Source: Gemmatimonas sp.
Lineage (GTDB): Bacteria; Gemmatimonadota; Gemmatimonadetes; Gemmatimonadales; Gemmatimonadaceae
Direction of reading: 5' to 3'
Assembly (NCBI RefSeq): GCF_021298855.1
Contig: NZ_JAJTHI010000017.1
Coordinates: 1-54,653 of the forward strand
DNA length: 54,653 nt
Part shown: positions 14,294 to 19,946 of the stretch, piece after piece
How positions within the stretch are numbered: the first letter of the stretch is position 1
How the letters are laid out: each line of letters begins with the position of its first letter
Program-made: the position numbers and the translations under genes
The notes under the pieces: model-generated
Databases searched by the model: none
Seen by the model: only the letters and a program-made list of their open reading frames with translations
Told to the model about the DNA's origin: nothing

Positions 14294-16003
14294 ATGTCCG
14301 AACCACAGCGTCCCAGTCGTCACGCCATGCAGGGTCCCGAGCGCGCACCGCATCGGGCGTTCTACTATGCCATGGGGCTCACCGAGGAGCAGGTGGCGCG
14401 CCCCCTCGTGGGCGTGGTGTCCAGCTGGAACGAGGCCGCGCCCTGCAACATCGCGCTCAAGCGACAGGCCGAAGTGGCCAAACGTGGCGTCATCGCCGGA
14501 GGCGGGACGCCGCGCGAGTTCTGCACCATCACGGTGACCGATGGCATCGCCATGGGGCATGCCGGCATGAAGGCGTCGCTGGTGAGCCGCGATGTGATCG
14601 CCGACAGCATCGAACTCACCGTGCGCGGACACTGCTACGATGCGCTCGTCGGCATTGCCGGGTGCGACAAGACGCTCCCGGGCATGATGATGGCCATGGT
14701 GCGCCTCGATGTGCCCAGTGTGTTCCTCTATGGCGGCTCCATTCTGCCGGGGCGGTATCGGGATCGCGACGTCACCGTGCTGGACGTGTTCGAGGCCGTG
14801 GGCGCCTATGCGGCCGGCACGATGTCGCTCGAGGAGTTGACGGCACTCGAGAAGGTGGCCTGTCCGGGTGCCGGGTCGTGCGGCGGCCAGTACACGGCCA
14901 ACAGCATGGCGTACGTGAGCGAGGCCATTGGACTGGCGCTCCCCGGGTCGGCCAGTCCGCCGGCAGCGTACGAGACGCGCGATCGCTATGCCGAGGCGGC
15001 TGGCGAGGCGGTCATGCGGTTGCTGCGCGACGGGCTGCGCCCGCGGCAGATCGTGACACGACGCGCGCTCGAAAACGCTGCCGCAGTGGTGGCGGCCACC
15101 GGCGGCTCCACCAACGCCACGCTGCATCTGCCCGCCATGGCCCACGAATGCGGCATCGACTTCGACCTGTTCGATGTGGCCGAGGTGTTCAAGCGCACGC
15201 CGCTCATTGCCGACCTCAAGCCGGGCGGGCGCTATCTCGCGAAGGATGTGCACGACATCGGCGGAGCAGGGGTCGTCCTCAAGGCGCTGCTCGACGGGGG
15301 CTTCCTGCACGGCGACTGCATCACGGTCACGGGCAAGACCCTGGCCGAGAACCTGGCCGATGTGGTGGTGCCCGGTGACCAGCGCGTGGTGATGCCGGTG
15401 TCGCAGGCGCTGTCTCCCACAGGGGGGCTCGTGGGGCTGCGCGGCAACCTCGCCCCTGATGGCGCCATCGTGAAGGTGGCCGGGCTCGCCCATCTCGTGC
15501 ACAGCGGCCCCGCGCGCGTATTCGACAGTGAGGAGGCGTGCTTTGCCGCCGTCATGGAGCGCCAGTACGAAAAGAACGACGTGCTCGTGATTCGCTACGA
15601 AGGGCCACGCGGTGGTCCGGGGATGCGCGAGATGCTCAGCACGACCAGCGCGATCTACGGGCAGGGCATGGGCGAGCACGTGGCGCTCATCACCGACGGC
15701 CGCTTCAGTGGGGCAACCCGCGGGCTCTGTGTCGGGCACGTGGGGCCGGAAGCCGCGGTGGGTGGCCCGTTGGCCCTGCTGCGCGACGGCGACATCATCG
15801 ATATCGACGCCACGGCGGGCACACTGTCCGTGCGGCTGTCGGACGACGAACTGGCCGCCCGTCGCGCCACGTGGGAGCCGCGACAGACCGACTATCAGAG
15901 CGGCGCGATCTGGCGCTACGCCCAGACCGTGGGCCCGGCGCGCTACGGGGCGGTGACGCATCCCGGAGCGCGCGCCGAGACCCATGTGTACGCGGAGGCG
16001 TGA
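14294..16003 (+). CDS. ilvD: Dihydroxy-acid dehydratase IlvD
   Basis: 569 residues, normal length. The enzyme dehydrates 2,3-dihydroxy-isovalerate and 2,3-dihydroxy-3-methylvalerate to the 2-keto acids, the last common step of valine and isoleucine synthesis. Fe-S ligands are in place: Cys51 (EAAPCNI), Cys124 (AGCDKTLPG, followed by Lys126, a candidate carbamylated Mg ligand) and Cys196 ([14 protein letters not shown]). The catalytic Ser lies in [10 protein letters not shown] (about 472), and the C-terminal swivelling domain follows. The three-Cys pattern implies a [2Fe-2S]-type enzyme. It is the first gene of the ilv locus but is separated from ilvB by the attenuator region, so it is not subject to that leader unless it is transcribed separately. 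Confidence 0.96.
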
Positions 16004-16183: not shown

Positions 16184-16303
16184 ATGTTCCCCACGGTCTC
16201 GCGACTCCTCAGCCTCATTCCGGCCATCGGTACGGTAGTACTCGTATCGGTAGTACGCGTGCTTGTCGGCACGCGGGAAGGCCGCCGGGTCGCGATAGCG
16301 TAA
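16184..16303 (+). CDS. Branched-chain amino acid attenuator leader peptide
   Basis: A 39-codon reading frame (ATG 16184, TAA 16301) just upstream of a terminator-type hairpin and the ilvB gene. 17 of its 39 residues are Val, Leu or Ile. Residues 17-28 read TVVLVSVVRVLV, with seven Val and two Leu. Five of those seven Val codons are GTA, a codon that looks scarce in the surrounding genes, and an ATA Ile codon is second from the end. This is the signature of an ilvB/ivbL- or ilvL-type leader peptide whose slow translation during Val/Leu shortage prevents termination. No good Shine-Dalgarno is seen before the ATG. The peptide itself probably has no function other than being translated. Confidence 0.86.
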   Translation: MFPTVSRLLSLIPAIGTVVLVSVVRVLVGTREGRRVAIA

Positions 16304-16404
16304 CGCGAACACCGCCGCCTCTCCCGCATGCGGGAGGGGCTGGCCTGGTCTGAAACGGACTCGAGGGCCCCCTCCGCACACGGTCGGAGGGGGCCCTTGT
16401 CCTT
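16273..16404 (+). promoter_or_regulatory. Transcription attenuator of ilvBNC (alternative hairpins)
   Basis: Five segments can pair in two exclusive ways. A is GCGGGAAGGC (16273-16282, inside the leader peptide just after the Val run). B is GCCTCTCCCGC (16317-16327). C is GCGGGAGGGG (16330-16339). D is the 5' arm (16365-16376) and E the 3' arm (16385-16396) of a terminator stem. A pairs with B (10 bp with one bulge) and then C is free to pair with D (GGAGGGG with CCCCTCC), which would block the terminator. If the ribosome passes the Val codons and covers A, B pairs with C and D pairs with E, giving termination before ilvB. This layout is read directly from the bases; its function is inference. 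Confidence 0.83.
16365..16396 (+). terminator. Attenuator terminator before ilvB
   Basis: A perfect 12-bp GC stem (5' arm GGGCCCCCTCCG at 16365-16376, 3' arm at 16385-16396) with an 8-nt loop, followed by TTGTCCTTT. It ends 22 bases before the ilvB ATG and overlaps the antiterminator pairing segment. Confidence 0.88.
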
Positions 16405-16418
16405 TCAGCCAGGCTCCC

Positions 16419-18284
16419 ATGATCGACGGTCTGCCCAACACCCCATGCCACGGTGCTCCCGGTGCTTCGCCCGCGCGCGAAGTCACGGGCGCGCAGATCC
16501 TGTGCGAGGCGCTCATTCGCGAGGGCGTTGCCGTGCTGTTCGGCATTCCCGGCGGCTGCATCATGCCGTTCTATCACGCCCTGTGGGAGCACCGCAGCCG
16601 GCTGCGGCACGTGCTGGTGCGCCACGAACAGGGGGGCGGGCACGCCGCCGAGGGGTACGCCCGCGCCACCGGACGCGTGGGCGTGTGCATCGGCACCAGC
16701 GGCCCCGGCGCCACCAATCTCGTCACGCCCATCGCCGACGCCTGGATGGATGGAACGCCCCTGGTGGCCATCACCGGGCAGGTGCCCAGCCACCTGCTGG
16801 GGACCGACGCGTTTCAGGAGACCGATATCACGGGCATCACCGTGCCCATCACCAAGCACAATTACCTCGTCACGCGCGCGGCCGACATTCCGCGCGTGGT
16901 GCGCGAGGCCTTTCACATTGCCCAGACCGGACGACCGGGGCCGGTGCTCATCGACATCACCAAGGACGCGCAGCAGGAACGGTGCGTGCCCGACTGGGAT
17001 GTGCGCATGGACCTGCCCGGCTATCACCCCGCAAGCCGACGTGCGGATGTCGCCGCGGTGCAGGCCATCGACGCCGCCGTCGGCGCGCTGCTGAGCGCGC
17101 GGCGTCCGCTGGTGCTGGCCGGCAACGGCGTGATGCAGGCGAATGCCGGTCACGCCCTGCGTCGCTTCGCCGAGCGTACCGGCATGCCGGTGGTCACGAC
17201 GCTGCACGGCCTCGGGGCCATGCCGCACGACCACCCGCTCATGCTCGGCATGCCAGGCATGCACGGCTGGGTGCATGTGAACCGGGCCATCCAGCAGTGC
17301 GACCTGCTCTTCAACATCGGCAGCCGCTTCGACGATCGTGTGACGGGGAAGGTGTCGGCATTCGCACCTCAGGCGCGGGTGATTCATGTGGACATCGATG
17401 CCGCGGAGATCGGCAAGCTGGTCACCGCCCACATCGGGATACTCGGCGATGCCCGCGATGTGCTGGAAACCCTCACCCCGCGGATGCCCGTGCACCCCGA
17501 GCGGTACGCCGCGTGGCGCGCAGAGATTGCCGCGCTCAAGGCGGAGTACGCACCGCGGCAGCACTACCGCCGGAGTGAACGCACTGCACCACTCATGCCG
17601 CAGGACGTCTTCGCCGCCTTCAACGCCGTGGCGGATACACGCCGGGACTGGCGCGTCGTGACCGATGTGGGCCAGCACCAGATGTGGGCCGCCCAACTCA
17701 TCGATTGGCAACGGGCCCGATCGCACATCACCAGCGGTGGTGCCGGCACCATGGGCTTTGCCGTGCCGGCGGCGCTGGGGGCGGCCATTGCCGATCCTTC
17801 ACACACGGTGTGGGTCTTCTGCGGCGACGGCGGCTTCCAGATGACCGCCTGCGAGCTGGCCACCATTCGTCAGGAAGGACTTGGCAACGTGAAGGTGGCC
17901 GTGGTGAACAACGGCTACCTGGGCATGGTGCGGCAGTGGCAGCAACTGTTCGAGGGGCGCCGCTACAGCGAAACGCCGCTCTCCGGTCCCGACTTCGCGC
18001 TGCTCGCGCGGGCGCACGGGTGGCACGCCATCACCGTGGACGAGGCGGCCGCTGCCGAATCGGCGATCCACGAGGCATGGACACACGACGGGCCGGTGCT
18101 CATCGACTTCCGCGTGGAACGGGAAGCCAACGTGTTCCCCATGGTACCCGCCGGGCGCGCCATTCACGACATGGTGCACGACGAAGCGCACCACGACCAG
18201 CAGCAGCGCGAATCACGGCTTGGCCAACACCGCCTCACGCCAGGCGCAGCGTGGGCCACCCCTCACACCACGGAGCAGGCATGA
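16419..18284 (+). CDS. ilvB: Acetolactate synthase large subunit
   Basis: 621 residues; ThDP-dependent acetohydroxyacid synthase catalytic subunit, which condenses two pyruvates, or pyruvate and 2-ketobutyrate. Catalytic Glu70 lies in VRHEQGGGHAAEGYARA. The central FAD-binding region follows, and the ThDP motif GDGGFQMTACELATI through VVNNGYLGMVRQWQ (about 469-510) is complete. The C-terminus extends about 35 residues past the usual end with a His/Gln-rich tail. ATG at 16419 lies just after the attenuator. The stop overlaps ilvN by four bases, so the two subunits are translationally coupled. Expression is expected to be set by the upstream attenuator. Confidence 0.97.
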   Translation: MIDGLPNTPCHGAPGASPAREVTGAQILCEALIREGVAVLFGIPGGCIMPFYHALWEHRSRLRHVLVRHEQGGGHAAEGYARATGRVGVCIGTSGPGATNLVTPIADAWMDGTPLVAITGQVPSHLLGTDAFQETDITGITVPITKHNYLVTRAADIPRVVREAFHIAQTGRPGPVLIDITKDAQQERCVPDWDVRMDLPGYHPASRRADVAAVQAIDAAVGALLSARRPLVLAGNGVMQANAGHALRRFAERTGMPVVTTLHGLGAMPHDHPLMLGMPGMHGWVHVNRAIQQCDLLFNIGSRFDDRVTGKVSAFAPQARVIHVDIDAAEIGKLVTAHIGILGDARDVLETLTPRMPVHPERYAAWRAEIAALKAEYAPRQHYRRSERTAPLMPQDVFAAFNAVADTRRDWRVVTDVGQHQMWAAQLIDWQRARSHITSGGAGTMGFAVPAALGAAIADPSHTVWVFCGDGGFQMTACELATIRQEGLGNVKVAVVNNGYLGMVRQWQQLFEGRRYSETPLSGPDFALLARAHGWHAITVDEAAAAESAIHEAWTHDGPVLIDFRVEREANVFPMVPAGRAIHDMVHDEAHHDQQQRESRLGQHRLTPGAAWATPHTTEQA

Positions 18285-18832
18285 CCGTGCCGGTACATAC
18301 CCTCATCGCCCTCGTGCACGACCGTCCCGGCGTGCTGCACCGCATCGTGACACTGCTGCGGCGGCGCGGCTACAACATCGTGTCGCTCGCCGTGGGGCGC
18401 AGCGAAACGCCGGGGATCTCCCGGCTTACCCTCGCGGTGAGCGTGGACGATGCCACCCAGGTGGTGAAGCAGCTCGACCGTCTCGTGGAGGTGATCGGCG
18501 TGGCCGATGCCACCGACGCCCCCACCGTGGTGCGGGAGACGGCGTTGCTCAAGGTGCGCGCGGCGAATGCCGCGCGCACGCACATCGCCGACGAAACGCT
18601 GGCCGCCGGCGGCCGCGTACTGGATCTCGGGCCGGACGACGTGATCGTGGAGATCACCGATGCCCCCGAGCGCGTGGAGCAGTTCGTGAGTGCGATGCGT
18701 CGCTTCGGCATCGCGGAACTCATGCGGACCGGCCGACTGGCCATGCTGCGCGGTCCTACGCCGCGTGTGCTCGAAGCACCCAACGACTACCGCGCGCAAG
18801 CCGACGGCGCGCCCACCGAGGAGGCTGCCTGA
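18281..18832 (+). CDS. ilvN: Acetolactate synthase small (regulatory) subunit
   Basis: 183 residues; regulatory subunit that stimulates the large subunit and confers valine feedback inhibition. The N-terminal ACT domain starts [20 protein letters not shown] with the Gly-x-x-x-Arg loop and [19 protein letters not shown] (about 30-50). The C-terminal domain (about 85-160) has the pattern [16 protein letters not shown] and [23 protein letters not shown] overlaps the ilvB stop (ATGA). Only one base separates its stop from ilvC's start region (TGAG-ATG). Confidence 0.96.
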
Positions 18833-18833
18833 G

Positions 18834-19946
18834 ATGACCCCGACCAACACGTCCAACACGACCCCCATGTGCGCCGCGCCGGTGCTGTACGACGGGGACG
18901 CCGAGCCGCAGCGCCTCCAGGGCCGCCGGATCGCCATCATCGGGTACGGCAGCCAGGGGCACGCTCACGCACGCAACCTGGCCGACCGCGGCATGAACGT
19001 GCGCGTGGGCCTGCGTGAGGGCAGCACGGGCTGGGCCGCGGCCGAAGCGGCGGGGCTGCGCGTGATGTCGGTTGCCGCCGCGGCCGCGGAGGCCGACGCC
19101 ATCATGATGCTGACGCCGGACACCGAACAGCAGCGCATTTTCGATCGCGAGATCGCCCCCAGCATGCGCCCCGGCAAGACCCTCTGGTTCGCGCACGGCT
19201 TCAACGTGCACTTCAACCTGATCGCCCCTCCCGACGGGGTGGACGTGGCCCTCATCGCGCCCAAGAGTCCGGGGCATCGGGTGCGCGAGGTGTTCACGCA
19301 GGGGGGTGGTGTGCCGGGACTCATTGCCGTGGCGCAGGATGCCAGCGGCACGGCGCGCGAGGACGCGCTCGCCTATGCCTGGGCCATCGGCTGCACCCGC
19401 GCCGGCGTCATCGAGACCAGCTTCGCCGAGGAGACGGAAACGGATCTGTTCGGCGAGCAGGCGGTGCTGTGCGGCGGTGTCAGCGCGCTGGTGAAGGCCG
19501 GCTTCGAAACGCTCGTGGAAGCCGGCTACCGCCCGGAGATGGCCTATTTCGAGTGCCTGCACGAACTCAAGCTCATCGTGGACCTCATGTACCAGGGCGG
19601 GCTCAACTACATGCGCTACTCGGTGAGCGATACCGCCGAATACGGCGACTACATTGCCGGCCCGCGCATCGTGACCGCCCAGACCAGGGACGCCATGCGC
19701 CAACTGCTGGCCGACATTCGCAGCGGCGCGTTCGCGAAGACGTGGGTGGCCGAGAACCACGCGGGGCGTCCGCACTTCAACGCGGCCCGCGCGGCTGACA
19801 TCGACCACCCCATCGAGCAGGTGGGGGTGCGACTTCGAGCGCTCATGCCATTTCTCGACGCCCGCGTCGCACGCCCCGATACGGGCGTGGCTGGTCTGGC
19901 GGAGGTCAGTCCCGCCGATCGGGGCGCTGCAGCCAGAGCGACGTGA
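18834..19946 (+). CDS. ilvC: Ketol-acid reductoisomerase (NADP+), class I
   Basis: 370 residues. It converts acetolactate or acetohydroxybutyrate to the dihydroxy acids using Mg and NAD(P)H. The Rossmann motif is [19 protein letters not shown] (about 29-48). The knotted C-terminal domain has [16 protein letters not shown] with acidic Mg ligands and [18 protein letters not shown]. The size and single-domain knot identify the short class I form. The N-terminus has an extra ~20 residues rich in Thr/Asn, and the C-terminus carries a 35-residue Ala/Arg-rich tail beyond the usual end; the last 41 bases overlap a convergent small membrane-protein gene. It is the last gene of the ilvBNC unit. Confidence 0.96.

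Follow-up and report, generated by a model that had tools for sequence, protein, structure and literature searches.

A probable ribosome-mediated transcription attenuator upstream of ilvBNC in Gemmatimonadaceae

The enterobacterial attenuators of ilvB, ilvGMEDA and leu share a leader peptide with a Val/Leu run, four pairing segments whose choice of partner follows the position of the ribosome, and a terminator before the biosynthetic gene. The enterobacterial his leader is built as a chain of alternating hairpins; it differs from the element described here in amino acid, operon and sequence. The ilvBNC attenuator of Corynebacterium glutamicum (ilvB-II motif) serves the same operon type as the present locus and combines a short leader peptide of the Leu/Val type with alternating hairpins and a terminator upstream of ilvB (PMC11857589, PMC10272879). 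A terminator/antiterminator/anti-antiterminator scheme has been proposed for it, and the element reported here resembles that scheme (PMC11857589). For ilvB genes of actinobacteria, which are another phylum, Seliverstov et al. (2005) likewise listed candidate leader peptides together with a terminator before the gene; their predictions of classical attenuators concerned trp, trpS and leuS, the ilvB cases being described as leader peptides with terminators (PMC1262725). According to Naville and Gautheret, Proteobacteria and Actinobacteria were the only groups in which leader-peptide attenuation had been demonstrated until they added a histidine case in Firmicutes (2010; PMC2965389). The initial annotation of the present locus knew of no described case in Gemmatimonadota, and none was found in searches of the open-access literature.

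The window, meaning the whole stretch of DNA that was analysed, is a single contig of 54,653 bp from a genome of 4.09 Mb in 91 contigs. Based on Pfam matches the gene order is ilvD, leader, ilvB-ilvN-ilvC, and all features given below lie on the forward (+) strand. The gene upstream of the leader, ilvD (dihydroxy-acid dehydratase, 14294..16003), matched ILVD_EDD_N with an E-value of 6.9e-127. The presumed controlled gene, ilvB (acetohydroxyacid synthase (AHAS) large subunit, 16419..18284; TPP_enzyme N/M/C), is followed by ilvN (AHAS small subunit, 18281..18832; ALS_ss_C and ACT_AHAS_ss), the product of which carries a C-terminal tail, and by ilvC (ketol-acid reductoisomerase, 18834..19946; KARI_N/KARI_C). 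Judged from the sequence and from folding models, the element ahead of ilvB would be a ribosome-mediated transcription attenuator that puts ilvBNC under the control of Val/Leu/Ile tRNA charging, a reading to which we assign a probability of roughly 0.88. As the device recurs in about 15 related genera, Gemmatimonadota, a phylum of soil bacteria, very probably use ribosome stalling to sense Val/Leu/Ile.

The leader ORF MFPTVSRLLSLIPAIGTVVLVSVVRVLVGTREGRRVAIA (16184..16303, putative start) can be read directly as 39 codons, 17 of which specify the branched-chain amino acids (BCAA) Val (nine), Leu (five) and Ile (three), exactly as first annotated. This is an excess over the 19.5% background in neighbouring genes (binomial P of 3.6e-4). 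The BCAA-rich frame was kept in 37 loci, which fall into three groups with a BCAA share of 39-46% in their leaders, against the same 19.5%. Val is the most frequent residue in leaders of the ilvB-first type and Leu in those of the ilvD-first type. The control run (codons 18-28, VVLVSVVRVLV in the window) differs between loci in its choice among V, L and I; the frame and its BCAA content stay, and the stop position and the offset of the first pairing segment (A, below) are conserved as well. The leaders use strikingly rare codons, and their codon choice is the reverse of that in the operon (ilvDBC). The Val codon GTG accounts for 14% in leaders versus 79% in ilvDBC and GTA for 31% versus 2%, GTA being used for five of the nine Val codons of the window leader. 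The same was found for Leu CTT (46% versus 3%) and Ile ATT (57% versus 25%).

Upstream of the leader start, several relatives have a promoter-like pair of -35 and -10 elements (TTG-N17-TANNNT-like) whose -10 ends 6-9 nt before that start, examples being TTGTGC-17-TAAAAT (L150) and TTGACA-16-TAAGTT (L161). At this distance the transcript would begin with the leader and the mRNA would be leaderless, which is also the case for the ilvBNC leader mRNA of C. glutamicum (PMC11857589, PMC10272879). A sigma-70-like consensus promoter was sought just upstream of the window leader and none was recognisable, so transcription there may derive from ilvD read-through or from an atypical promoter.

Five segments able to form two exclusive sets of hairpins had been proposed from the letters, and their coordinates were confirmed. 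Segment A (GCGGGAAGGC, 16273..16282) lies in the leader beyond the Val run and has segment B (GCCTCTCCCGC, 16317..16327) as its partner. B can pair instead with segment C (GCGGGAGGGGC, 16330..16340), and C in turn with segment D (GGGCCCCCTCCG, 16365..16376), which is otherwise the 5' arm of a terminator completed by segment E (CGGAGGGGGCCC, 16385..16396). The exclusive sets are therefore A:B with C:D, or B:C with D:E. A small conserved hairpin at the leader stop codon (16287..16313) is nested in A:B. A sixth segment, Z (16199..16221), situated in the leader's 5' half, is predicted from folding only (full-leader MFE and the no-ribosome profile) to pair with A together with the 3' flank of A in an untranslated leader. 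The region is far more stable than dinucleotide shuffles of it, with z scores of -7.3 (16184-16410), -5.5 (from 16275) and -6.9 (from 16300). When the RNA was cut just before E, four of the six closest loci, the window among them, exchanged an MFE structure of B:C plus D:E for one of A:B plus C:D, which shows that the exclusive sets are genuine alternatives, as opposed to a single structure drawn in two ways. The terminator claimed in the initial annotation held as regards its stem, D:E being a perfect 12-bp helix with an 8-nt loop, 22 nt before the ilvB ATG at 16419. Its supposedly T-rich tail (TTGTCCTTT, 16397-16405) proved to be a poor U-tract, and a consensus terminator scan of the window did not flag D:E.

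Pairing across relatives was examined in an alignment of 28 rows (A5) from which antisense matches were excluded, the hairpins being near-palindromic. Taken together, the stop-codon hairpin, B:C and D:E were paired in 91.4% of cells compared with 81.1% in shuffles, and two-sided changes occurred in 22 of 25 pairs where 10.5 were expected. This level of pairing and covariation was reached by none of 500 shuffles and by no slid control; pairing fell to 47-59% when partners were slid by 1-3 columns. Each of the three was also individually supported in A5. The D:E helix was 96% paired with double changes in 12 of 12 pairs, the B:C helix 92% paired with double changes in six of nine, and helices 1-2 of the stop-codon hairpin 58-76% paired with two-sided changes. 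For A:B, a covariance-model alignment gave 88% pairing and a few double changes. An alignment-free comparison of duplex energies between own and permuted partners, using one locus per genus or lineage, gave p = 2e-4 for A:B. For C:D it gave p = 1.4e-3 (0.0014) with D corrected by hand in several mis-parsed loci and p = 0.22 before that correction. Control pairs in the same test were not significant (A:C, p = 0.88; B:D, p = 0.45). As the genomes are related and are not independent samples, which inflates tests of this kind, the covariation p values are taken as strong but not as exact probabilities. The clearest compensation in A:B was seen in L156, L159 and L163 (A = GTGGGA..GAGGC, B = CTGCCTCTCCCAC) and in L161. 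Single-locus tests of A:B against synonymous shuffles fell below 0.05 in 12 of 37 loci, most loci being non-significant singly. On this comparative evidence a mutually exclusive antiterminator is conserved by covariation, and the proposed check of related ilvB leaders found that relatives keep the BCAA codons as well as the alternative pairings.

The effect of ribosome position was modelled by folding the RNA downstream of the ribosome with each leader codon in turn in the A site and with the RNA ending at D. With the A site at any codon up to 27, equilibrium folding of the window element gave A:B at close to 100%, with C sequestering D. Once the A site reached codon 28, B:C was near 100% and D was mostly free, completely so near the stop. 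In the absence of a ribosome the 5' half of the leader was predicted to bind A, and B:C formed. In the window and in most relatives the predicted switch thus falls where the BCAA run ends. In 18 of 18 loci its amplitude was above that of the synonymous-codon null and of the codon-order null (Wilcoxon p of 1e-4 each). At five loci (L004, L148, L150, L151 and L160) there was little or no release of D at equilibrium even with the ribosome at the stop; the equilibrium model fails there and kinetics must matter.

These profiles are consistent with the following sequence of events. RNA polymerase would transcribe the leader with a ribosome trailing on the 39-codon frame. When Val, Leu or Ile is short, the ribosome would stall in the rare codons 18-27, with Z covered or already passed and A exposed, so that A:B could form as B emerges; C would then pair with D, the D:E terminator would be blocked and ilvBNC transcribed. 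With ample amino acids the ribosome would cross A and reach the stop, B:C and D:E would form, and transcription would end before ilvB. An untranslated leader would arrive at the same terminating state through Z:A pairing.

The initial annotation had a ribosome stalled at A favouring antitermination. The outcome and the polarity agree with the model, while the means does not. A ribosome covering A would favour B:C and D:E, hence termination; read-through needs a stall upstream that leaves A free. The reverse polarity, in which a stalled ribosome covers A, frees B for C and makes starvation promote termination, draws on the closeness of A to the run, since A starts just 5 nt past the last Val codon and a ribosome at codon 28 already covers part of it, at which point the model turns to B:C. 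It is nevertheless highly improbable: modelled stalls up to codon 27 leave A free, with read-through as the outcome for the window and most relatives, repression of BCAA synthesis during BCAA starvation would be physiologically senseless, and the no-translation state likewise terminates in the model, as in classic superattenuation.

The element was found in about 15 genera of the Gemmatimonadaceae. A close ilvB was present in 33 of 179 family genomes. The leader and hairpins lie directly upstream of ilvB in nine loci (six initially, plus L169, L173 and L174), and in 22 loci they precede a tight ilvDB operon in which ilvD abuts ilvB. A covariance model built on the first six loci found the element again in the phylum, with sequences outside the training set scoring down to 35-40 bits. 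In L030/L162 (G053, same genus) ilvB was present and no leader was recognisable within the stretches examined. This distribution bears on another account of the window, by which the hairpins would do no more than terminate ilvD transcription, the leader frame having arisen by chance in a GC-rich stretch between the genes. The element does sit between ilvD and ilvB in the window, D:E would terminate by itself, and an open frame of 39 codons is not unusual in GC-rich DNA. Against this, the 22 other loci have the leader and hairpins upstream of ilvD, conservation extends to the BCAA-rich frame and to segments A and C, none of which a terminator requires, and the leader has a rare-codon bias, all of which makes a plain ilvD terminator very unlikely.

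Other families of the class gave mostly ordinary terminators as model matches, and these were rejected; a BCAA-rich leader accompanied the match in one genus only (g76). There, in three genomes (L132, L204 and L212, that is G198, G444 and G238), a Leu-rich leader and a terminator lie upstream of leuA-leuB-ilvB, and the B:C hairpin is absent. This leader is a probable relative of the Gemmatimonadaceae element and may be a simpler form of the attenuator. The match at G000:C44:30060 (L175) was likewise rejected as an attenuator, as it has no BCAA-rich leader and resembles a plain terminator.

A ligand-binding riboswitch or a protein-binding leader with an incidental peptide was also considered. 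The small conserved hairpin at the stop codon might be read in that sense, and ppGpp-sensing riboswitches have been reported for ilv operons in some bacteria (PMC11857589). An Rfam scan of the whole window was empty at the gathering threshold and gave only sub-threshold chance matches at a relaxed E-value; beyond the alternating arms nothing resembling a conserved, unpaired aptamer core is present, and in the control run V, L and I replace one another while the frame and BCAA content hold. Such a leader is most improbable here.

With attenuation by a ribosome as the preferred reading, the element can be set against the described systems. The initial annotation called it the classic enterobacterial design, which fits only roughly. 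The four-segment ilv/leu/trp scheme of enterobacteria is exceeded by an extra alternating (relay) hairpin, B:C, between the leader-borne segment and the terminator, giving six functional segments (Z and A to E) where the enterobacterial ilvB, ilvGMEDA and leu attenuators have four. Having one more alternating hairpin than that form, the element comes nearer to the his leader, whose parity it shares: Z:A, B:C and D:E for off, A:B and C:D for on. Compared with C. glutamicum ilvBNC, there is no sequence family match and the leader is longer; after the control run come a separate segment A and an additional B:C hairpin, so that two new helices (A:B and C:D) would have to form for read-through. The element would thus be of a known attenuator type, with a relay hairpin beyond the textbook four segments, in a phylum for which no described case was found. 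Leader-peptide attenuation would thereby be extended to Gemmatimonadota by a covarying, family-wide case, and the 37 loci supply directly testable structures in cultivable Gemmatimonas relatives.

A second copy of the element was found in the genome of the window at G000:C90:18369-18495 (L166:2370-2496), with a score of 54.5 bits to the covariance model; further second-copy loci are L167, L168, L170-L172, L196 and L199-L201. The copy has a BlaR1-like M56 gene upstream and is followed by a ribosome-binding-like AGGAGG and an ORF of 55 aa, which had no Pfam match. Small ORFs of this kind (52-55 aa) occur in 13 genus members, with the attenuator in front of each. The ketol-acid reductoisomerase gene ilvC (PF01450) was present in three of 30 genus genomes searched, all three among these 13, so that ten of the 13 members with a second copy are without it; an IlvD-family gene is kept in 29 of the 30. 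The rarity of ilvC beside this retention suggests that many members of the genus are BCAA auxotrophs.

At its C-terminus the small protein has [FY]R[ED]QADGAP, which is the tail motif of IlvN in the family (YRAQADGAP-like; the C-terminus of IlvN is encoded at 18770-18832 in the window); such a tail is otherwise nearly absent from the genus genomes. At the original ilvD site three genomes carry remnants behind the attenuator: an N-terminal ilvB fragment in G056 (L169), a C-terminal IlvN fragment in G052 (L220), and in G058 (L173) an ORF of 60 aa with only the IlvN tail. As judged from their sequences, these are stages in the loss of ilvBNC behind a retained attenuator. Based upon this series and the tail motif, we infer that the small ORF descends from IlvN. 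It is possible, and we put it forward tentatively, that the attenuator outlived its operon in Gemmatimonas-group genomes that lost ilvBNC and whose hosts must import BCAA, and that it now fronts a stand-alone, starvation-induced microprotein of 52-55 aa with the IlvN tail ([FY]RxQADGAP), or acts as a trans-acting leader. Genomes which lose ilvBNC and yet keep the attenuator would indicate that a regulatory RNA can detach from its operon.

The persistence of the second copy in 13 genus members, most of them without ilvC, also bears on whether the attenuator, working as described, has in addition a terminated leader RNA or peptide that acts in trans, as reported for the attenuator peptide peTrpL of Sinorhizobium (PMC7298713). 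Because the second copy precedes a conserved small ORF, ordinary control in cis suffices, and an added action in trans is unlikely. The M56 gene adjoining the second copy (L166:521-2197) encodes an M56 peptidase of the BlaR1 type that carries a fused TonB plug-like domain at its C-terminus.
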